From NCBI RefSeq assembly GCF_037975245.1, contig NC_092579.1, positions 17,012,178-17,076,177 of the forward strand: a DNA stretch of 64,000 bases. The letters run 5' to 3'. Within the stretch, counting starts at the first letter, position 1; every line of letters begins with the position of its first letter. A program made the position numbers and the translations under genes. A model generated the notes under the pieces. It was not told the origin of the DNA and made no database searches. It saw nothing but the letters and a program-made list of their open reading frames with translations. The stretch comes from Apostichopus japonicus. Its lineage: Eukaryota > Echinodermata > Holothuroidea > Aspidochirotida > Stichopodidae. Below, one piece after another: positions 5,976 through 55,876 of this stretch.

Positions 5976-6036
<61 letters not shown>

Positions 6037-7237: not shown

Positions 7238-7240
<3 letters not shown>
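1..7240. other. Non-coding stretch, no exon recognised
   Basis: I see no coding exon here on either strand. The open frames are short and resemble no family I know. The stretch holds TA microsatellites (1-34, 750-771, 5982-6032), a G-rich run at about 2479-2515, a C14 run near 6338 and AT-rich single-copy DNA. A motif ending ACGCCACTG near 4572-4582 looks like one end of a hAT-type element, but no partner end was found. The RASD-like gene at 16.4 kb is on the + strand and lacks its first exon, so this may be its intron or simply intergenic DNA. Confidence 0.5.

Positions 7241-7312
<72 letters not shown>
7241..7312. repeat. (TA)n microsatellite, about 36 units
   Basis: Uninterrupted TA dinucleotides over 72 bp, the longest pure TA tract in the window. 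It gives rise to meaningless Tyr-Ile open frames on both strands. Confidence 0.97.
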
Positions 7313-41999: not shown

Positions 42000-42246
42000 T
42001 TAATTTACATTATCCATCTTGAGTACCCATGCATAATCACAGGGCAGTTGAGGACCAGCCAAGACTGGGAACTGAATGGTCATACTGACACCAGACTGTG
42101 AGCCTTTGGACCACTGGAGTGCTGTGCTGACCCCCAGCATATGGACTGTGGTAGTTTCGCTGGTTACCGGTACACCAAGATTCAGTGTATTGTTCTCGGG
42201 CCAGTCCAGCACAATGGCATAGACGGAGGTATTTTTGGTCGTGTAC
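42000..42246 (-). CDS. FUCA1: Fucosidase exon H (C-terminal beta domain, stop)
   Basis: 247 bp from acceptor TTGTGGTAG to TAA at 42002-42000. It encodes [20 protein letters not shown] through [15 protein letters not shown], the C-terminal domain of animal fucosidases. Confidence 0.93.
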
Positions 42247-45200
42247 CTACCACAAAAACAGAAAGAAGATTGTTTTAAGTAGTGGTGTCAACTAGGAAAG
42301 CTTCAGACATTCGGCAACACGTCTAATTTTAACTCACAAACTTAGGAAAAAATATATTGTTCAAAATATACTGACACTGCTCTTATCCCCACTCGAATAT
42401 AGGATAAGTAAAGAACCCTTTTTAGAATGTTAGGCTTTGAACCTACACTCTGTCAGATGATATACAGATTTCATTATATCTATTGCTGCAGCTGTAACTT
42501 AAACCTCTCAACCATAGCAACAGTACAGAAACATGACCAGAGTGAGCAAGCTGGCAAAATGCTAGCTATTATTGTTTCTCATTAGAATGCTTTTGCCAAC
42601 TTGAAAATAACATCCAGGTAGTCTGGTGTCTCTAGTGTTTAGCATCGTCAATTTGACCAAAAAAAATAATAAGACCGGTGAAAAAGCAAAATGTAGAAAT
42701 ATTTACTCATAGTGCAATGGGTGTGGTCAATTGGTTCTACTACTGAAGGGGTTTGGGATTATGATAAATGCAAAATTGCCATTTCCAACGAAATGAAATG
42801 GTCAGACGAAGTAGTAATGTCTTTCAAGGCTCTTACCATACTCCAGGAGTAAAGGTGTCATTTTGAGATGTCCATGGGTGTGAAGCATAGATGCCTTCAC
42901 CATTCACCTTCAACCAGGCTCCAATCTGTCTCAACCTCTCTTCAAAGATGGGAATGATGCGTCCATCATGTGTAGGTCCGAAATTCATGAGCATGTTACC
43001 CCCACAGCTGAGAAAAATGGAGATCAAAACAATATTTAAGTACAATTCTTATAGCAAACTTTGTTTACACACAATGAAGGTTGACATGGTCACTTTTCTT
43101 GCTCATGGTAGCTTCTGTTGTGATAAATAACCTTAACTTTGTGTTTCTAATAAATCGTGTGGATTAACTGAAATTTAAGCCACAAGCATTAACCGTCTTA
43201 CGTGAACTTATGAGAAAATAAGTGCGTTTAATTTGAAATGCTTACTGAACATTGGTTACTAGAAATGAAGGTTATGGAAATTGCAACCCTGCAATGATTT
43301 GTTGAAGCAGAACCTTCTTCAGTTACAAGATGGCTTTGTTTCGTAATTTACAAAACTAGAAATGTCCAATAAAATCTTTGATATCAGTGCTTGCATTGAT
43401 TGTTCTCATTCATGCAACTTTAAGCCGAATGCTATATTCAGCTGTTTTAGTTATCTGCCACTGGTCACCACAATTAACCTTTTTACCTGCACACGGCAAG
43501 TACCACACATCTCACCAGGCTAAGGCTTGCACGAATTGAGATAACACTTGTACTGATATACACATTACATCCTAATTGTAAAGATCAGAAACTATAATTA
43601 CATGTATTCATACATGTAGGCTTCAAGAACACTAACAAGTTAGTTTTATGTTGCTTACAATCCAAATTTGCCAAGCAACTGTCGTAATGATGTTTTCCTT
43701 GTCTAAAAATGAATCACGAAAACACTCAAAGCTGGAAAATAATGTGAATCTTTGGATGAAACCAAACCAAAGAATTTATGATCTCATCTTCAACTTGATC
43801 ATCAGAAAAACTGTTAATGATTAGCAAAAGCTACTCAATCAACAGATACAAACAATGAAATAAATACGATACAAAACGTGCTTGGATCTCTGGTTTAGCA
43901 GTATACTCTTTGTAGTGTCTAGTTTAATAATATTGTGATGGTTTCATTTAAATTAATGAAAGAAAGAAAGAATGAAGGGATATTAATCTTAATATATATT
44001 TTAGGGGTATGATGTCAAAGGTCATTTGAGTCTAAATCTTTGATGCCGTATACAAGCGTTTTAATTTTCACAATGTATATTACAACATGTCTATAGGACA
44101 TCATCATTCAAGGTAGTAGCAAATTTAGAATTATTTCTTGCCATACTTAAGGATTTCAGGAAAGGTTATGACAGCCAAATAATATGGTTATCAAATCTAA
44201 TCTACTAGTATTGCTGCAGTTCTGTTGCAGTAACTCCAATAAAATTGTATATTACAAAATGGACATCATGATTGAAGTTAGTAAGCAAATATCAAATGAT
44301 TTCTTTGCCATGTATATTATGATTTCAGGTAAGATTGTGACACCTTAGCAATATATGGTTACTGTATGAATCCACTAATATTTTCTGCAGCTCTGTTTAA
44401 CTCCCTTCAGTATAACACTGTATATTAACACATGTCTATAGGACATCATGATTGAAGATAGTAAGCATATTTCAAATTGTTTCTTATTTTATGATTTCAA
44501 CAAAGGTTTCAAGTAATATGGGTAGCTATGAAACTATCTCCTTGTAACTCTCTTTGAGAGTTTGAGCTTTAATTATCACTTGAATTTGTAAAATGGCTTT
44601 ATACTCCAGGAAGTTGCCAACACAACTCTGCCATTTGTACTTGGACATTGATCAAACCACTTTAACCTTGACTGCTGGTATATGAGGAAACTGGACATGG
44701 AGGAAGATGTTACCCATGAAACCAAATCACCAGTCACCTGTTTCTCATACCTGCTGTCCAGGTTTCAAGTCTATTCCTAATCACTTCCTTATAAAATTAT
44801 CAAGAGGATGAATAAACTAACTCAGCAACATCCCTCCTAGTTGTGTTTTCTTTTTGAAGGGAAGAGGATTGTTGGGGGGGGGATGGGCACATGGAATGAC
44901 TAATTAAAATGAAAAACCATATTTAAGGAAGGGAATCACACTTTACGAGAACTGTTTACTAGCTGAAGCAATGTCTGACACCAGTCTAACATAGTTACTG
45001 TAATTGTTGCAGCAGCACACTATAACAACCTATAACAATATAACACTAACAACCTATTACACTAACAACCTATAACAGTACAACACTTACAGCCTATAAC
45101 ACTATCAAACTATAACACTATCAAACAGCCTATAACACTAACAAATTATAACAGTATAACACTAACAAACTATAACACTAACAAGCTATAACAATATAAC

Positions 45201-48200
45201 ACTAACAAACTATAACACTAACAAACTATAGCACTAACAAACTATAACAATATAACACTAAAAAACTATAACACAATAACACTAACAAACTATAACAATG
45301 TAACACTAACAAACAAAAAAACACTACCACTCTATAACACTAACAAACTGTAACACTAGAAAACTATAACACTAACAAACTATAACAACTAACCTACCAG
45401 AAAAAAATGGAACGTAGAAATACAATACAAAATCAGAGCAAACTGACCTGATGGTTTCTGCCAGGGTCTGAGTGATCTCATCCATGGTTAAGAAATCACT
45501 GTACTTAGTGTCTCGTCTGTAACCCCAAGATGTCTTGTCAATCGTCATGGCATTCTCCCATTTATGTTTCTGCAAGACACCTACACGTATCCAGGGAGGA
45601 GGAAAGTCAACATTTCTTTGGTTATCATCCTTTATTATTTCAACCAAGTACTCACCCACTTTTCTTCTCTGGTTAACTGTCGATATTTGCATTGACAGAA
45701 TGATTCATACATTAAAATACATTTTGTGTAAGACATAAGGCTAATTAAAAGCAGCACCAGGAAAAAGTCAAAACAGGATTAGTCTGGAGGTATAGATAGC
45801 AGTAGATGTCATTGTAGTAAAACTAATGATAAATCTTTAAAATCTCTACATAAAATCACAGCAAAAACTACTCAAAATCTCTACATACCATCACAGCAAA
45901 AACTCCTCAATATGCAGTACACTGGTGCAAGGTATACCTCATGTCATCATTTAGAAAATAACACAGCAAATAGCTTTGTTAAAATGTTTGGCAATCTCTT
46001 GTACTTTGCACATTTAACGCAAAACATTTTTTCATAGATTTTTACGTATTAATGAATTAACATATTTCAGACGAATGTGATGTGTATATTTGTCTAAATG
46101 CATGGCTATGATGCATTTTGCACGTACATGCAAATTTGAACTTTTCATTAAAGTAAACAGTCAAGATGTAATGATTACTTAATTCAATCATCTCCTTTCC
46201 TCGCATCAGTAACTTACCTTACAATTACTTTGTTGCATCATTAAAACACAATTTAATATTCAATAAAAAATAACATCAAGCCAAAAGAAAGAACAGAGGA
46301 GGAGGATAACAAAAGGCATTTTCTGATAAGACATTAAGTAAGTTACAACTCTGCTTATAACCTTTAAGGTTTTACCTCTCTTTAATAGGCTTACCACATA
46401 GAGTTAAAGCGACTTAAAAGTACAGTGTACAAGAATGGACTTTGGAAGTAACAACAATGGAACACAAAAGGTAGTGGAACGAAAATTAAACGGGTGGGGC
46501 CCTCTCAAGTTAATGACTTTCAGTTTTCTAACTTTGAGATTTTTTATTTCTTTACTTTAATCTTTACCAATTTGAACAAACATTTCTGTGTGTGTATCTT
46601 GATATTTATTATTGACACCCTTTGCAGGCGATCCTATGTAAGAAGGTAATATTCAATGTGATCCAGGCTACTTCAAATCTCGAAATATATTATTATCTCG
46701 CCCTTATTTTACCTTAAACGCTGTTGCAATTTCCCTTCACAAAGTTCTCAAATCTAATTGGTCAGAAAGAGACATTGTCGTCAAAAATAGGAAAGTTGTA
46801 CTGTAATATTTCAAAATCAACTTAAATGCTGAAAGGTCTATTTTGAAGGGATTTACTTTCCATTGACTTTGTGGTAGGGTTTTCTTAGGGATATGCCAAC
46901 CATTTGGTTTATATCTACAAGTTAATGCCATCTGCTATGTTTGCCTTTCTCCCTCAGCAGTGACATGGCCATTTAGCTACTCCAATTTTGAGCACAGAAT
47001 AGCAAATTAGCAATAGTAAGTCCTTCGATGATTCTAATCTTACAACACAAATTGTTTGTTAACTTCAAAGTTTATACCATTTCTATAAAGGTGTATTCAA
47101 ATTCATTTTTTAACCCTAAGTGGAAGGGGGCTAGCCCATAGCCTTACACTCCAACCCTTCCAGACACAATTAACACATAATCCTCCTTTCCATTCTCAAG
47201 GAAATTAATATGGTTTCACACTATGTCAATAAGGCTCCTCATTTGCAATTTTTTGTTTTGTGCAGTCATTTGTCTTTTATTTAATGTACAGTAATTGGTA
47301 TAGACTTTATGAATGCTTTGCAGTAATGAACGTTTTCTTAAGCACAATATACTTAAGGGATTGTTGAACTACACAGGTTACTATCACATATCCTTCCACA
47401 TAGTTTACCTCTCGCCACCTAGCCAAGAGATCAGTACAAACGAACTTTGATCCCGTCTGTATGAATAACATGTACAGAGACATCAGTCATTCTCATAACA
47501 TCGAAAGCCACTTCAACTGACTGTGCTGGTGGGTGTCGCAGACATCTGTTATATATATATATGACATTGCACGCACAATTGTCTCACACCGATTACTAAT
47601 ATCACATGTCGCTACACCTAGTTTACAAACTTACTTATCTATGCAAAAGATTATAAATGAACTTTGCTCATTAATGATTCAAAAGTATGTAAGACTGTAC
47701 CAAAGACATCAGATATCTTTAAAGCATACATAGGACATTTGCACTTGACACTGCCCTGCTCATAATGTTTAGTTTATTACATGACTGATATAACACATCT
47801 AGATAACACCCATGTGGTTAGTGCATGCTATGCAAACAGCTATCATCTAGATGCTTCTAAACCAATGTACATGTACAAACTGACTGTACGTATAATTATA
47901 GTACAAAACTGCCATTTCATCCCCATTCTTTTAATTATATGCAAACAGGTAAAGTGATGACCTGGATATGTTCTGTCACTTTATGCAAGACTTACTGTTT
48001 CTTGGACATTCACAGATATAGGGATGTAACTCAACTATCCACACAAACATTCTCATGTCACCCACCCTAATATCCAACCATCCTAATCATCTCGATCTAA
48101 TCTCATATTGCCACTCATCTTCATCCCAACTCATCCCTGATATTTGAAAGAGACAATTCCACTAAAAGTTCTATCAAACACTACTCGAAGTTACCCCATC

Positions 48201-51200
48201 TGCAGATTTTATCCAAATATTATCCACGCTCAGCAATCTTTCTTATTCAACACACCAGCACCACCCTTACATGACTGCACAGACAAGAAAAGCAACCAGC
48301 AAGGTTTACATGGAGCACACTTACATGATCAAAACTGAATAAAAGCGTGGACACCATGGACTAATTTTCAACAGTGTAGATGACTATAAACATAACAGAC
48401 ATGTGATCTGAATTTGACCTGCATATTGCAAAGTGACCAAAGGTACTGAAGCATGGTCCATAAAAAGACAAGACATTTTCAGGGAAGTCCCATTACTTTA
48501 CTGTTTTGACTGATCTCAATTCTTAGCTAATCTACGACATGGTATAAGCTCATCAGGATTAAATCTGTCAGCTAATCTACAACATGGTTTTTAAGCCCAC
48601 CGGGATTAAATCTGACGGCTAATCTACGACATGGTTTTTAAGCTCACCGGGATTAAATCTGTCCTGACATGTGTAGTAACCGCCGTGTTGACATCTTATG
48701 TTATTGCCACCCCAGCGGTCGTTCACCACAATGTAGTCTTTGACGGGGCTGTTTGTGATATAAAGAATGACACTGTGTGAATATGTTGACCTGCATGAGA
48801 ATACGACACTTGACACAGTGAAGATGTTGTAATGAACAATCATGAGTGGTTTCTTAATGTTGCAGCATGCAATGTGTGATGAGTTGAAAACAAAATGTGG
48901 TAATTGATGGAAGCATATCTCCCACAGACACACAACTACTGTATGGTATGGTGATTTGAAAGCCAGCAGATTTGAATGAAGAGAAACCCTGAGCAACAAT
49001 TGCTCCTGAAAATTACTCAATACTGGAGTAGAAATAAACCATCTCAAAAGTCACTAAAGCCTCCCTGGTCAAACATACCACAAACATTATGATTATAAAG
49101 GAGCTGGAGAGCTTCTGCAATACAATTTTTCTGCAGATACTTTCCACTTATGAACATTAAGTTGCATCTTTTGGAAAGTTTCTCCCATTTTCCTTCAGAC
49201 GTGTCAAGATGCTTCATGAGAGAATATTAAATGTAACCAATAGTGCAGACAAACGATTTTAAGTTTTGACAATTGCTAGCTGCCAATAGTTCTCAAGGTA
49301 CTTGTACTTATGTGGAAGGGTCTACAAGGGTTTTGCACTTTGATATGTATGGACCAGAAAGTCCTATTAAACAATAAAAACAATATGATTCTTGTACTTA
49401 ATACATGGATTCATATACCAAGTATGAAGTTCATCCATGCAGGCTTTACTTAATTTTCAAATTTTTAATCACGGATGAAGTTAACTGACCTTTTGCCTCA
49501 AAAACAATCATCAGGATTCTTATAATAACTAGAGTTAAGCTACCTATTATTAGTATGAAGGTCAAACGAGCCTCTCCTTTTAAATGTTATACTGTTAAAT
49601 TGGTTTACATAGTAAGTTGGAGGGGGCAGTGTTTACAAATGCTATACTGGATGTTGTTCATTTTGTTACCGGGCTGTTCCTACAATCACTACTTTTGCAA
49701 AGTCACTCGGAATGTAATTAACCTTTAACTTTTCAAAACTCCTAAAATATTTATCACACCAAAAGCCCAAGGATCAGTGCCATGAAGGCATAATCATGTC
49801 TGAAAGTTCACTAGTAAATGAGATTGTTATACGAAACTAAACTCAACTAGACAGGTTGGAAGTATTATGTTACCAATTTTACTGAAACACTGTACAACAA
49901 AGATCACTTTGGTTGTGTGGTGGGGATGTAGGGAGCACCTTATGATTTCACTTTGCACTGTTGTATTCACTTTATGCAAATATTATGCAAAATACAAAGA
50001 TGAACTGCATCCAAAGCAACCTTCCAATCTTATAATTATCTTAAACACAATGCCTTTTATTATCATCCCTCTCTGTTCTTTCTTTTGTCCCTGATATCTC
50101 AGGGACTCACCGGGGTTGTAACGGTCTGTGCATGTGTAGTAACCTCCGTGATGGCACGAGTCTCCCTGACCCCAACGGTCATTTACCACAACATAGTCTT
50201 TGACCGGACTGTGTGGACAGATGTGATGGATACAGACACATGAAACAATACGATGCTCGTTATTAATATAACGTTAATAAATTAAGGAAAAACCCCAACG
50301 CAAACTGTTTGAAGTAGAAATGTCATCATACAGCACAAAAGAAACATTGTTCGTAACTCCGCCAAAAAGTAAAACAAGAAAAGTTTAATGGAGAAGAAAT
50401 TATTTTCCAATGCAATCATGAGGTTAAAGCTGGTAAAAAAAGGAAAACCGAAATTATCTACAAAAATATCTCTAAAAGCTGAAGCAACCGCTTGAAAGGG
50501 CTACAACATTTTTGCAAGTATAAAATGCTTAAAGCAGCTGGTTGCCATAGCAAATACACATTAGCTAGCACAATGTTACTGAGTTTGACTTCCTAATTAC
50601 ATTAATGTGAAGTTTGTACTACAATGGATATTAAATAAGGACCAAAATATAGAAGTTGTCATTTTCTGTATCATTTCTCAATTTGAAATTGATAATTAAA
50701 CTATCATCTAAATATCAGGCAGTAATCACAAAGTAACACTATGCATGATAATGTAATATAGAAACAGAAGCATAGCAAATAATGAATAGAGAAGATAAAA
50801 AGGGGAATAAAACAATTTGAATAACAAGTAACTGAGAGTACAGTCAAGTCTTGCGAGTAGCAGTACCAGTTTAAAAAAGAATTCTTACTAAAGATGCTGC
50901 GTTATCAGAAAATTAATGGAAAATATTTTAGGAGTGAGCCGAAGAAAACCGTTTCAAATATTCAAAATTTCCTTAAAAGCAGTTTACTGATATCTTAGTT
51001 CACTCAATTTGTCCTAGAACGATCGGAGAAGCTGAATAAATAATCGGTCACTCCTTTTCAACTTTTTCTCTCTCTTCCTTTAATGGAAAATATTTTAGGA
51101 GTGAGCCGAAGAAAACCGTTTTGAACAATCAAAGTTCCGTTAAAAGTAGTTAACTGATGTCTTAGTTTACTCATTTGGTCCTAGAACTATCGAGGAAGCT

Positions 51201-54200
51201 GAATTAATAAATCAGTAATTCCTTTTCAACTTTTCCTCTCTCTTTCTCTCCATCTCTATCTCACTGTCAACATGAGAAATCAAAAAAAAAATTTAAAGAA
51301 GAATAAATCCCAATGACCAGGCTTTCATGCATGGATGTATTTACATCAGTATGTTAGTCTTTTTTAGATTTTTTGCCTATCAGAAATCTCTAACTTATTC
51401 AACACACCACCACTACCCTTACATGACTGCACAGACAAGAAAAGCAACCAGCAATGGGGCAAAAATTAGCCAAGCTAGGTGACATCAAAAATCCCTCTTA
51501 TCTCCCATTCTGTCAGCTGAACGGCACAGTTAATTACGTGATCTTTCTCCCTGCTGACCCAACGATCAAATGTCCAGCTACACTTGCTTGGATCTAATGT
51601 GTGATGTATGAATTACACTATTACAGAGCAACAAGAAAGTGGGGGCGATATTCAGAAAACAAGTCTAGCTGGCAAATGTGATGAAACAGTCTGTTAGACC
51701 AACTGATTTGAATATCAATATACTTACATGTCTCCATTCTAATCACAATACTTTACCATCTTCTGCACTACCCTCAACCCCCTCCTCCCAACTCACCCCC
51801 ACCCCCCTTCCTCCCATCAACTCACCCAGTTCCAGGTCACCACCCATCCCCTCTTCCTTGGAAATCTACTATTCATATCCAAAAACACCTGTGTTGGCAA
51901 CAAATATACCATTAATGCAATTGTTATGTATTTTGCAGCTAGGCTAGGTTACCTGTTATCAGTGAGTTGTAGACCAAGTTAACTTGAACATTTTTTAAGC
52001 ACTAAACAGCATCTCCATTAGTCTCCTAAATCAAGGGTCTTAGAATGAACGATGTCTCTGATTGGAAGTAATCTTGCCAAATGTGACATAAACTGCTCTC
52101 CTCAGAGTTTCATTTAACATCAATGTGTAATGGAAACGAAATAATGAAGTCAATAGATGAATTAAATTAAAAGTTTCCCGGTAAATGGAGAGCAAAATGA
52201 GAGAAATAAAAAAGAAGCCATGCACTTTTATTTGAGGTGCCAGATATTGCTTTCAAGCTAAATTTTTCAAACCTGTCATTGTAAAGCCAGGCAAGGAAAT
52301 CGGGGCTTTCCCAGTAGGTATCGTGGCCACCCCCTGGACCATCTGCCCAGATAAGACAAGGCTTGTAGAGATTGACTATCTCCTCTAGCTGTGGTCTCAT
52401 TACCATCTGTGAGGAGATATGAAAGAAAATGACAAACGATGAAAAAATGATGAAAGAACCAACCTTTCGTTAAAAAGCCAGGCCAGGAAATCGGTGCTCT
52501 CCCAGTACGTATCTGGGCACATCCAATCACCGTCCGACCAAATCAGGTGTGGTTTGTATTTGTTAACAATTTCATGCAATTGCGGTTTCATGACCATCTA
52601 CAAATGAAAAAAAATTAGATTTTCAAACACATTTTCCGCTTTTCTTTGTAATGGGGGGGAAGGGGGGAGGCAGTCTTTTCAAATCAGCTTCTTGGCCAAA
52701 GCCCTACTTGTTTTATATAGTTCTAATAACTAATATAAAATGCACCAGAAAACTTCATATTAAGGTCACTAATAAAAGAAATCATCATATGCCCTACACA
52801 AATTGTAATACATCTTAGTAAGCAAGTTATTATAACAGTCATTGTGTCGGCTGGTCAGCGGTCCTAACAGTCATTGTGTCGGCTGGTCAGCTATTCAGTG
52901 GGCAGGCACCCTAACAGTCATTGTGTCAGCTGGTCAGCTATTCAGTGGGCAGGGGCCCTAACAGTCATTGTGTCAGCTGGTCAGCTATTCAGTGGGCAGG
53001 GGCCCTAACAGTCATTGTGTCGGCTGGTCAGCTATTTAGTGGTCAGGGGCCCTAACAGTCATTGTGTCTGCTGGTCAGCTATTCAGTGGGCAGGGGCCCT
53101 AACAGTCATTGTGTCAGCTGGTTAGCTGTTCAGTGGGCAGGGGCCCTAACAGTCATTGTGTTGGCTGGTCAGCTGTTCAGTGGGCAGGGGCCCTAACAGT
53201 CATTGTGTCGGCTGGTCAGCTATTCAGTGGGCAGGGGTCAGTTGATAGACAAATATCCAATACTAGATCACGATGATAGAGTTGAGTCAGGTCATGTTGA
53301 TTTCAGGCCGTGTACCATTACCAGGTCTGGTGATATACACTGAACTGATGCATTCAGTTGGAACCGCAAAGTCAATTTCCTACAATTCAGCATGGTTCCA
53401 ATGACTGGTATACAAAGGGTATTTGCTTGCAGTTTGGATGGCCAAAACTATCACTGTAATAGAAGAAAAAATCTGTTTCCAAAAGTTATGTTAAGTGACC
53501 AACTTAAAAATCATAAGGAGTCGTCTTATGAGAGAGCTAGATATTAAGTTTTTCCCCTGATTTAAAATGTTATACAATCATATTAAATGATGAAGAAGGG
53601 AATAAAGGCAATTTAGGCGAGGATAATTCTGTCAGAACTTCCTTAAAGAGATATACTGAGATAAAATGTTCTAATACACTAGTACACATAAATGTATAAA
53701 TACTGTACTATATCCTGTTTGAATTAGTTACCTTCATGTAATCTTGAGTGGAGAAGTTATTGGCAGCATCTTTCAAATACAATGGATGAAACCACTCAAA
53801 TAGAGAGTAATAAAGACCAAATTTGATATCAGTTCTACTTCTGACAGCTTCTGCCATTTCCCCTGGAGAGAAAGGAAGGATTTAAAAAAAAAAACATGAA
53901 AACATATAAACAGATATCATAATCTAAGCTAAAGCTGTTTATTACAGGAAATATTTGAAAACCAATCAACAAAGTTTTCCTTTCCTTTGTAACATCTAGT
54001 ACTCATCTCATTTGTTTGGTGACAGAGCTTTCCTTTATATAAAGAAATAAAGTCACTACTAATTTTAGTGCTCCATTAATATCGTTGATTGTTTGATTGT
54101 TCACAATTGTTCAAGATATTTGTTAAGGAAACCTGTTTCAGGAGGTACATTATATCACCAGTGATTGTCTGTTTTAATGCTTTAGTGCTGTACATCATCT

Positions 54201-55876
54201 GTAGTTCTGTACATTTTGGTGCTCTATAATTATCATTGACTGTTCCCAATCATTCAATATTCTCTTAAAGGAAACCTGTTTCAGGAGGTATAGTATTTCA
54301 CAAGTGGTTGTCTGTTTTAATGCTTTTGTGCCAAAGAGCATCTGTAGATTATTGGTGCTCTATATTTATCATTCAATGATTAATTGGTTGATTGACTCAT
54401 GATGAATTGAGGCTGAACGATTATTATTTAAAACTAACCGAGAGTAGACAAAAAACAAGCAAATCCATAAAGGGTCAAACAATTTTTAGGACTTCATCAC
54501 AAAATCTACTTTTAGTTTCACTTGGGATAAGAACATATACCGAAACACACACAAAAGAAGGTGTTTACATGGATGTTACAACTTTCAACACTTTTAGAAG
54601 AACGTCAATGCACTGTAAGTACAGTACAGGTTCCAGTAAGTGCTAACAAGGAAACAAATTTCTCTGGTTTTACGATGGTTTACAAGTTAAACGTCTTCTA
54701 TACTGTAAGAATGAGAATGTTACAGACTAGATACAAAATTCATCTTAAAACATCTAAAATAAATCACATCAAACTATCATTTTGCACAAATCAGAGACAT
54801 TTCATTGAACTGAAATTTGAAATCCTTTTTACTTGACGGTGACTTTAATGGTTACTGAGGTAAAAAAGTGATCAAGCTAAGGGTGAAACATACCAACAAG
54901 ATCCCTGTTTGGCCCTAGATCAACTGAATTCCAGTTCCAGGAGAAATTAGAAGCATAGTTGGTAAACCCTTCATGATGCTTGCTAGTCAAAACAACATAC
55001 CTGTTGAAGGGAAAATTAAATTTCTTTGTCAAACATAAGTTTCACACAGTTAGACCTAAACTTTTTGCAAACATATGAAGTCCCTCATGTCACACAATAA
55101 CCTGTGCATTGATGCAGATTAAAGTATTTGAACATACATGTACGTATACTAAATGGCAATGCATCGAAGGTAACCATATAAAGCAAAAAGAAAAGTCAGG
55201 TTATCGAACAAACCCAACAAGCTGGCTTACAAAACTTTCTTTCCAAGTATATACTTACTGGACAGACTAAAATGCAATTGTTCCTGCTGTTTTGTAACCA
55301 AGTAATGAGTGTCCATTTTCAGTTTTTCTTCTTTTTTTTTCTTTCTTTCAATAAGTAACCAATTCTTGGAGATGACTACATAAGGATTAACAATGCAGCA
55401 AAGTGTAAATATGTTGCCATATTGTATGAGACGAAGAGGGTAAAAAAATAGATTAAAATAACTTACTGAGCACCTGACGCCTGCAGAACATCTGCGAAAT
55501 GGTTGGCATCGAACATTTCAGCGGTGAACTTGGGAGCAAAATCAGGGTACTGGAAATGGGGCGGGTAGTTTTCCTTCATGAAGTTTACATAATCTGGGTT
55601 GCCGGTCTTCCATTTGTACCAAAACCATTCATTCTTGAATGCCGGGACGGAGTAGACACCCCAGTGCATGAAGATACCAAATTTGGCCTCATCGTACCAA
55701 CCTGGAATGGGGCGAGAGTCGATAGATTCCCAGTTTGGCTGGTAAGGTCCCTGGTGGACCTTCTCCGATTCCTTGTGGAATTGGACGACCTTCGTTTCTG
55801 GCCGGAATCTTAACTTTTGAGCTTGAGTCACAAAGACCGCAAGACACAGAATGAGAGCTTTGGTGAGGATCTCCAT
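42000..55876 (-). CDS. FUCA1: Alpha-L-fucosidase (GH29), complete coding region with two duplicated exon pairs
   Basis: Secreted/lysosomal enzyme removing terminal L-fucose from glycans. Coding exons in transcript order: A 55876-55467, B 55000-54894, C 53862-53732, D1 52597-52464 or D2 52406-52273, E1 50208-50111 or E2 48748-48648, F 45580-45448, G 43007-42837, H 42246-42000. With one D and one E the sum is 1431 nt (476 aa) with E1 or 1434 nt (477 aa) with E2, close to human FUCA1. Seen: a signal peptide ([15 protein letters not shown]), [21 protein letters not shown], the nucleophile motif WSDG or WADG (Asp 238), NDRWG, the acid/base candidate Glu 302 in HKWEN, and SWGYRRD. Sequons at NFS, NDT, NTS and NNT suggest N-glycosylation. 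Using both D or both E copies would break the frame. A second tandem gene lies upstream. Confidence 0.94.
42837..43007 (-). CDS. FUCA1: Fucosidase exon G
   Basis: 171 bp, phase 2 in and out. It encodes [20 protein letters not shown] then [20 protein letters not shown]. This matches the [22 protein letters not shown] region of human FUCA1, where the barrel ends. Confidence 0.93.
44072..44520. repeat. Three diverged tandem copies of an approximately 173 bp unit
   Basis: (A/T)TGTATATTA at 44072, 44244 and 44417, followed in each by GGACATCAT(C/G)ATT and a TTTCTT block. Spacing is 172-173 bp. Confidence 0.75.
45011..45394. repeat. (AACTATAACACTAACA)n satellite
   Basis: About 380 bp of short variable units alternating AACTATAACACTA and ACAATATAACACTA, immediately downstream of exon F in its 3' intron. 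Confidence 0.92.
45448..45580 (-). CDS. FUCA1: Fucosidase exon F (acid/base exon)
   Basis: 133 bp, phase 1 in and 2 out. The acceptor is ATACGTGTAG at 45581-45582. An alternative CTTGCAG 12 nt further on would shift the frame, so I chose the first. It encodes [20 protein letters not shown] then [20 protein letters not shown]. The Glu of HKWEN aligns with the general acid/base region of characterised GH29 enzymes. Confidence 0.9.
45581..48647 (-). other. Fucosidase intron E2-F
   Basis: No exon. It contains a 35 bp tandem duplication at about 45838-45906 and a segment at 48238-48305 that is closely repeated at 51395-51455. Confidence 0.8.
48546..48662 (-). repeat. Triplicated exon E2 3' end with donor site
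   Basis: The phrase covering CAGATTTAATCCCGGTGAGC at the end of E2 recurs at about 48614 as CAGATTTAATCCCGGTGGGC and at about 48570 as CAGATTTAATCCTGATGAGC (spacing about 44-48 bp). The intervening sequence also repeats. Only the first copy keeps a consensus donor; the second has GTGGGC and the third has lost GT. Confidence 0.8.
48648..48748 (-). CDS. FUCA1: Fucosidase exon E2 (alternative of E1)
   Basis: 101 bp, same phases as E1, acceptor CACAAACAG, strong donor GTGAGC. It encodes [20 protein letters not shown] then [13 protein letters not shown]: one residue longer than E1, with QGDSCHH replaced by GGNNIRCQH. 24 of 32 aligned residues are identical. The exon is intact. Partial copies of its 3' end, including decayed donors, follow downstream (48548-48614). 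Confidence 0.88.
48749..50110 (-). other. Fucosidase interval between E1 and E2 (1362 bp)
   Basis: An ordinary-sized intron if both exons were joined, so exclusion of E1 or E2 cannot be steric. The open frame running upstream of E2 to 49047 is not conserved. Confidence 0.8.
50111..50208 (-). CDS. FUCA1: Fucosidase exon E1
   Basis: 98 bp, phase 2 in and phase 1 out, acceptor GTCCACACAG, strong donor GTGAGT. It encodes [20 protein letters not shown] then [12 protein letters not shown], close to the human [25 protein letters not shown] is invariant in animal GH29. Confidence 0.92.
50209..52272 (-). other. Fucosidase intron D2-E1
   Basis: It contains two tandem copies of a 167 bp unit (50914-51080 and 51081-51250, both beginning TAATGGAAAATATTTTAGGA) and the second copy of the 48238-like segment at 51395-51455. 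Confidence 0.8.
50914..51250. repeat. 167 bp tandem duplication
   Basis: Both copies run from TAATGGAAAATATTTTAGGA through GAGTGAGCCGAAGAAAACCG to a CTCTCT run, with moderate divergence. Confidence 0.88.
52273..52406 (-). CDS. FUCA1: Fucosidase exon D2 (alternative nucleophile exon)
   Basis: 134 bp with the same phases as D1, starting only 57 bp downstream of it. The acceptor is CCTCACAG; the donor GTTTGA is weak. It encodes [20 protein letters not shown] then [14 protein letters not shown] and FLAWLYND. 31 of 44 codons give the same residue as D1. The nucleophile Asp is kept, but the five residues after the Gly change from DWMCP to PGGGH, and Ser before the nucleophile becomes Ala. There are no stops or frameshifts, so it seems to be under selection. 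Confidence 0.88.
52407..52463 (-). other. 57 bp spacer between exons D1 and D2
   Basis: It runs from the D1 donor (GTTGGT) to the D2 acceptor (CACAG) with a T-rich middle. If spliced as an intron it would be unusually short for an animal of this kind. Confidence 0.9.
52464..52597 (-). CDS. FUCA1: Fucosidase exon D1 (nucleophile exon, canonical version)
   Basis: 134 bp, phase 0 in and phase 2 out. The acceptor is CATTTGTAG after a T-run; the donor GTTGGT is weak. It encodes [20 protein letters not shown] then [14 protein letters not shown] and FLAWLFNE. The Asp of WSDG is the GH29 catalytic nucleophile. DWMCPDTYW resembles the human EWECPDTYW, so this looks like the ancestral form. Confidence 0.92.
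52830..53238. repeat. 47 bp minisatellite, about nine copies
   Basis: Contiguous units of CTAACAGTCATTGTGTCGGC ... CAGTGGGCAGGGGCC, about 47 bp each; the first is shortened. It lies in the intron just upstream of exon D1. Confidence 0.95.
53732..53862 (-). CDS. FUCA1: Fucosidase exon C
   Basis: 131 bp between acceptor TTTCTCTCCAG and donor GTAACT. It encodes [20 protein letters not shown] then [20 protein letters not shown] and YMK, ending in phase 0. It corresponds to the [15 protein letters not shown] region of human FUCA1. Confidence 0.92.
54894..55000 (-). CDS. FUCA1: Fucosidase exon B
   Basis: 107 bp between acceptor TTCAACAG and donor GTATGT. It encodes [19 protein letters not shown] and [16 protein letters not shown], highly conserved in GH29; the HHEG histidines lie in the fucose-binding pocket in characterised members. 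It is too short for a 60-residue open frame and was found by phase and conservation. Confidence 0.92.
55001..55466 (-). other. Fucosidase intron A-B (466 bp)
   Basis: GT-AG intron with a TTCTTCTTTT-rich patch near 55325-55350. Nothing else seen. Confidence 0.85.

Follow-up and report, generated by a model that had tools for sequence, protein, structure and literature searches.

Two successive pairs of putatively mutually exclusive exons at the catalytic residues of an Apostichopus japonicus alpha-L-fucosidase gene

A GH29 fucosidase gene with two doubled exons

The window, the whole 64-kb stretch of Apostichopus japonicus DNA that was analysed, carries on its minus strand a GH29 alpha-L-fucosidase gene that runs from 55876 to 42000 and comprises exons A, B, C, D1, D2, E1, E2, F, G and H, with GT-AG at every junction used. 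All features of the gene given below are on that strand. Exon A (55467..55876) contains the start codon and encodes an N-terminus that resembles, by eye, a signal peptide; the Pfam domain PF01120 begins at residue 35 of the protein. Exons B (54894..55000) and C (53732..53862) of the gene model lie upstream of the doubled exons, and exons F (45448..45580), G (42837..43007) and H (42000..42246) lie downstream, the last with the stop codon and the C-terminal domain PF16757. A tandem neighbour, also a fucosidase gene, lies partly in the window with its last two exons (63558-63388 and 62440-62198).

The exon after C is present as two 134-bp copies, D1 (52464..52597) and D2 (52273..52406), separated by a pyrimidine-rich spacer of 57 nt (52407..52463). 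Both are entered in phase 0 and left in phase 2, both are free of stop codons, and 31 of 44 residues are identical between them, all of which the sequence-only reading had noted and re-measurement reproduced. The acceptors end in tttgtag (D1) and cctcacag (D2) and the donors read AAG/gttggt (D1) and CAG/gtttga (D2). A D1 query run against the window and six other loci retrieved D2 at E = 8e-19, which is far from chance. The earlier reading placed a switch at this exon, which bears the catalytic nucleophile. The D pair is real, but the doubling is not confined to it: the next exon, which bears the acid/base residue, likewise occurs as E1 (50111..50208, 98 bp) and E2 (48648..48748, 101 bp), with 26 of 34 aligned residues identical and one additional residue in E2 before the HGG motif. 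Both pairs have the structure expected of mutually exclusive exons, namely tandem homologous copies of the same phase with lengths not divisible by 3 and intact splice sites.

Several tandem repeats lie nearby. A 47-bp repeat in three copies (48525-48663, minus strand) copies the 3' terminus of exon E2 together with its donor, and its copy 2 offers a possible decoy donor, CCCG/gtgggc, with an in-frame stop ahead of it. The C-D1 intron holds a 47-bp minisatellite (52852-53237, 8.2 copies, 93% matches) and the D2-E1 intron a 167-bp tandem duplication (50913-51244, 2 copies, 86%).

That the gene encodes a fucosidase is borne out by Pfam scores far above cut-off, 414-430 bits for PF01120 (cut-off 25.2) and 92-95 bits for PF16757 (cut-off 25.6), in a scan that covered three of the four isoforms (D1E1, D1E2, which is the RefSeq protein P0001, and D2E2; D2E1 being the fourth) together with P0005 from the neighbour gene. 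The D1E1 form aligned to human FucA1 (7pls) over residues 45-475 with E = 9e-178. The nucleophile of human FucA1 is Asp225 and its acid/base residue Asp276 (PMC9548408); the chain index of 7pls equals the numbering of that paper minus 25, and with this offset D225, D276 and Asn236 fall on matching residues. D225 maps to D1 and D276 to E1, and the same residues are retained in D2, which aligns to D1 without gaps, and in E2 when aligned to E1. Each catalytic carboxylate therefore lies on a duplicated exon of its own, and the claim that the nucleophile Asp is kept in both D exons holds in the alignments of D1 with 7pls and of D1 with D2. The nucleophile motif W[SA]DG is present in both copies, and the sequence has the features of an animal-type GH29 enzyme, PF01120 with PF16757, the nucleophile Asp in W[SA]DG and the acid/base Asp. 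Trp223 of FucA1, described as part of the pocket (PMC9548408), has an equivalent in both D forms. The Asn-X-Ser/Thr site that is glycosylated at FucA1 Asn236, near a subunit interface, is absent from both D copies (WEST, WESP) and retained in the other three fucosidase genes of the genome (WNAT, WNST, WNST). A pseudogene reading of the locus was set aside in view of the open frames and the strong Pfam and PDB matches.

The reading frame allows one copy of each exon. All four isoforms with one D and one E are open over 476-477 amino acids; the six other combinations, D1+D2, E1+E2, both pairs, no D, no E and neither, all stop at codon 226-302. The frameshift that had been predicted for joint inclusion of the D exons is confirmed, with a stop at codon 263 when D1 is joined to D2, and retention of the gap also leads to a stop (ORF 52400..52597), leaving one or the other as the sole in-frame choice among the combinations tested. 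We propose that the fourth exon of the mRNA, D1 or D2, would supply the nucleophile Asp and the loop after it, and the fifth, E1 or E2, the acid/base Asp and the loop before it. It is hardly credible that the duplication is an artefact of assembly or haplotype, for which nothing was found: 43 of 132 bases are different between D1 and D2, which lie 57 bp apart within a 32.4-Mb contig, and the neighbour gene also has an E pair.

Records, constraint and history of the exon copies

RefSeq already names isoforms for this gene. The best-matching protein, 'alpha-L-fucosidase-like isoform X2 [Apostichopus japonicus]' (P0001), is A-B-C-D1-E2-F-G-H letter for letter, and the identity of this record with the D1+E2 prediction backs the use of both D1 and E2. 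Use of D2 and E1 is putative and as yet without record, neither exon occurring in any of 120 listed of 6765 protein matches. These are given as one protein per 90% identity cluster; the P0001 cluster has 6 sequences, and an isoform bearing D2 or E1 would fall inside it. When the D2 region served as query in a protein search that depends on common five-residue words and likewise lists one protein per 90% cluster, the neighbour paralogue P0005 was the sole match. P0005 is RefSeq isoform X1 of the neighbour gene and contains that gene's first E. The 120 matches listed, out of 6765 and many of them without a name, include none named as another holothurian. A study of saponin biosynthesis reports PIK53384.1, an alpha-L-fucosidase of A. 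japonicus, as an interaction partner of AjLS (PMC13412492).

On these records D2 might be an exon that was once used and is now silent or spliced as noise, live alternative splicing being that of E1/E2 alone; the sole A. japonicus protein record seen for the gene contains D1, the searches above returned no D2, and 'isoform X2' could differ from X1 in E only or outside both pairs. We regard this as unlikely in view of what D2 has kept. Its splice sites, open frame, nucleophile and most conserved residues are retained despite synonymous divergence from D1 that is saturated (pS 0.94, pN 0.19). In a simple neutral simulation 18% of copies were still open at the observed divergence, yet none of 20000 retained 31 of 44 residues. 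Compared with the only D of the neighbour gene, D2 gives pS 0.70, pN 0.15 and dN/dS of about 0.08, and its acceptor tract, with a pyrimidine fraction of 0.85, is equal highest of the 20 exons compared. With synonymous sites saturated between D1 and D2 but the protein sequence retained, D2 appears neither recent nor plainly dead. The sequences support divergence of D1 and D2 under protein-level constraint, which the pairwise test gives as a joint value for the two copies rather than apportioned between them. For the E pair, pS is 0.71 and pN 0.17, and none of 20000 neutrally simulated copies retained the observed identity of 26 in 34.

The same constraint bears on the idea that the second exon of each pair is a poison exon, with joint inclusion leading to decay and so tuning the dose of the enzyme rather than the type of its active site. 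Joint inclusion of either pair does produce an early stop, yet a poison exon requires neither a catalytic residue nor protein-level constraint and the exon copies keep both; moreover E2 is an exon of a RefSeq isoform and the 57-nt gap would hinder D1-D2 joining. We consider this idea very improbable.

Three further fucosidase genes bear on the history of the copies. When the 671.6-Mb genome was searched with the D2 peptide, five candidate places were found at E <= 1 and all five were scored, these being D2, D1 and one D exon in each of the three paralogues. The neighbour has a single D, with the loop SGRG, that is identical to D2 at 34 of 44 residues versus 31 of 44 to D1, and two E copies with 161 bp between them, either of which preserves the frame by itself while the two together shift it. 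Genes 3 and 4, on contig C19 at 1.13 Mb and 20.53 Mb, each show a single D and a single E in the loci as read. A relic of D1 in the neighbour gene was considered and rejected, as D1 and D2 peptide queries match only one D in that locus. A blastn comparison of gene 1 with gene 2 for conserved intronic elements gave 11 rows, 10 of them on exons and one a 26-bp match at E = 0.009.

The donors of D1 and D2 had both been described as weak. They are indeed weak, but the D donors of the single-D paralogues read gtttgt in all three cases; weakness is a trait common to the D exon family, uninformative on regulation and no sign of alternative splicing, and this line of evidence was dropped.

In phylogenetic trees E2 groups with the second E of the neighbour, with SH-aLRT/bootstrap values of 87.6/79 (DNA) and 91.8/82 (protein), a grouping that points to an E pair older than the separation of the two genes. 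The first E of the neighbour groups with genes 3 and 4 (95.8/94, DNA tree) and not with E1, so conversion or later turnover of E copies is likely. For the D exons the signals diverge. Of the three pairs that D1, D2 and the neighbour's D can form, D2 with the neighbour's D is the closest in 1582 of 2000 codon bootstraps, and in the protein tree D2 joins a Ptychodera protein first (68.1/52) and then the neighbour's D (88.2/57), with D1 outside the group; the DNA tree unites D1 and D2 and sets them apart from the neighbour's D together with genes 3 and 4 (34.5/54). The evidence on the age of the D pair is thus mixed and does not settle it. We hold loosely, from these trees, that both exon pairs may be old and that the neighbour would have lost its D1.

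The D gap, a possible intronic stem and the choice of exon

The spacer between the D exons had been judged probably too short to be spliced. A length of 57 nt does fit a published mode of steric enforcement, in which a branch point less than about 50 nt from the donor is proposed to be too close, a threshold that derives from vertebrate data (PMC7969005). Counted from the D1 donor, those adenines of the gap that precede D2 by at least 10 nt lie at 13-46 nt, and by geometry alone every candidate, at no more than 46 nt, falls within that vertebrate threshold of about 50 nt. A parallel is provided by exons 4a/4b of OGDH, where exclusivity is attributed to branch points too near the upstream donor (PMC7969005). 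It differs in that distant branch points were mapped in OGDH, whereas in the fucosidase gene 57 nt is the whole gap and its adenines are candidate branch points. We propose that joining of D1 to D2 would be blocked by the lack of a sterically possible branch point.

E1 and E2 are separated by an intron of 1362 nt, and here an inverted repeat is present. Arm 1 (50049..50087, 39 nt) begins 23 nt past the end of exon E1 and arm 2 (46282..46320, 39 nt) lies in the E2-F intron, so that pairing of the two, both on the minus strand, would loop out E2. The duplex of the arms, which includes two G-U pairs and two mismatches, has a predicted energy of -54.6 kcal/mol, and the strongest pairing of the E2-F intron with the first 600 nt of the E1-E2 intron reaches -61.6 kcal/mol, compared with -32.7 to -39.3 for six dinucleotide shuffles. 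An 8-bp hairpin between E1 and arm 1 starts from position +5 of the E1 donor, and the whole fold has a z of -3.3 (0 of 200 shuffles). The second E donor of the neighbour gives a fold with z of -2.4 (8 of 200 shuffles), and the other three E donors folded were unremarkable. The choice between E1 and E2 may be set at least partly by RNA structure, with the stem of arms 1 and 2 looping out E2 and favouring E1-F joining; the hairpin on the E1 donor could act in the opposite direction. Decay of mRNAs that include both E exons could serve as a backup.

Docking-site and selector pairing was also considered. Such a system is described as requiring at least two selectors that compete for one docking site (PMC6071210), and blastn yields only one pair of arms; the arrangement looks instead like a single loop-out stem.

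The stem could also be a chance inverted duplication, with exclusivity arising only from the reading frame and decay, aided at D by the short gap, an explanation that concerns mechanism only and is compatible with both pairs being functional. The stem is known from a single sequence, and in the matching intron pair of the neighbour gene there is no comparable stem, the best duplex of -29.1 being within its six shuffles; between its D-E1 and E1-E2 introns a duplex of -31.5 was found, slightly beyond all six shuffles (-24.2 to -27.9). The arm pair is moreover one of two distant inverted pairs (at least 30 nt, at least 85%) in the window. Against chance, one of just two such pairs begins 23 nt beyond E1 and brackets E2, with an energy far beyond that of the shuffles. 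The 80 nt around arm 1 have one genome match at E <= 0.001, in a search that also missed arm 2 and is therefore blind to short copies. We take a chance origin of the stem to be a serious possibility, though not the one we favour. The other inverted pair of the window (5978-6034 / 7239-7296, 58-nt, 98% identical, 1.2 kb apart) is possibly a small mobile element.

We regard it as probable that this is one animal-type GH29 gene with two successive mutually exclusive exon pairs, D1/D2 being kept apart sterically and E1/E2 at least partly by RNA structure, and that the swaps would alter loops and hence substrate range or rate. As read from the DNA, its firm parts are the exon anatomy, the intact frames and splice sites, the logic of the frame, the constraint on the copies and the identity of one deposited isoform with D1+E2.

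Active-site loops and the possible meaning of the swap

D1 and D2 differ in the ten residues of the loop that follows the nucleophile, where the sequence-only reading pointed to a change from DWMCP to PGGGH. The change is real; PGGGH is unusual rather than bizarre, since this loop is generally variable in animal fucosidases. Among 120 listed homologues of 6765, with P0001 and P0005 included and two proteins lacking a motif match, 123 motif sites were found, of which 68 have Trp at the third position after the nucleophile and 55 lack it there, so variation in this loop is ordinary. The loop of D1 belongs to the Trp type and that of D2 to the non-Trp, glycine-rich type. The D2 loop resembles that of a Ptychodera protein (P0008, GPEGGTDVYW) and, less closely, those of proteins named plasma fucosidase (GDGGAPDSYW, P0084). 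Ptychodera flava has a D2-like loop in P0008 and a D1-like loop in P0011, two fucosidases on contigs of equal length, so that the contrast between the two exons recurs there between two proteins.

Human FUCA1 and FUCA2 belong to the same GH29 family and have the same catalytic pair; the D1 loop is FUCA1-type, and the glycine-rich D2 loop is nearer to sequences named plasma fucosidase. Human and mouse FUCA2 are reported to have no activity on pNPF or 4-MUF (PMC12427801). By its loop resemblance to an enzyme inactive on these two artificial substrates, the D2 form of the A. japonicus fucosidase may be slow or selective, which is a guess by analogy. Exon exchange would spare the fucose pocket and alter the loops around it, so that the isoforms would be expected to differ in substrate range or rate and not in the reaction. 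A bolder and tentative extension, which we think possible without relying on it, is that two independent splice switches, each swapping a catalytic carboxylate together with its loop, give one gene four active sites. The D2 forms, FUCA2-like in the loop, would then act on other fucosylated substrates, for example sulfated fucans and fucosylated chondroitin sulfate, both of which are present in the sea cucumber body wall, or would be poor hydrolases that bind fucose or transfer it.

Gene duplication is a common route by which enzymes diversify their active sites. Vertebrates have the two loop types in two genes, FUCA1 and FUCA2, whereas A. japonicus has them on two exons of one gene. A single gene with two sets of mutually exclusive exons is described in unc-32 of C. 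elegans, which encodes a V-ATPase subunit and not a hydrolase active site. CYP4F3, a P450, has a single exon pair, which lies in a region of substrate recognition and not at catalytic carboxylates. It is alike in that its alternative exons form a splice switch that alters the specificity of an enzyme (PMC7434440). A further parallel in the same source is coq-2, in which exons 6a/6e of C. elegans, helminths, annelids and molluscs, homologous and equal in length, swap an active-site core and thereby change the choice of substrate (PMC7434440). Unlike the fucosidase gene, coq-2 has one pair and encodes a polyprenyltransferase, and its function and RNA evidence are established, whereas the fucosidase arrangement is known from sequence. 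Mutually exclusive exons that remodel the core of an enzyme are thus known and are called rare, with coq-2 and CYP4F3 as examples (PMC7434440), and within the data of one survey 9 mutually exclusive exon events affect catalytic sites (PMC7954323). In the literature searched, with most subscription journals outside its scope, there was no earlier description of mutually exclusive exons in a fucosidase or other glycosidase.

Fucosylated polysaccharides are abundant in sea cucumbers, and for this reason a tunable fucosidase would be physiologically relevant to them. As the two catalytic residues lie on exons that would be exchanged independently, what each loop contributes could be tested in otherwise identical proteins. 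The finding also bears on why vertebrate FUCA2, which has a glycine-containing loop at the same place, was inactive in one study (PMC12427801).
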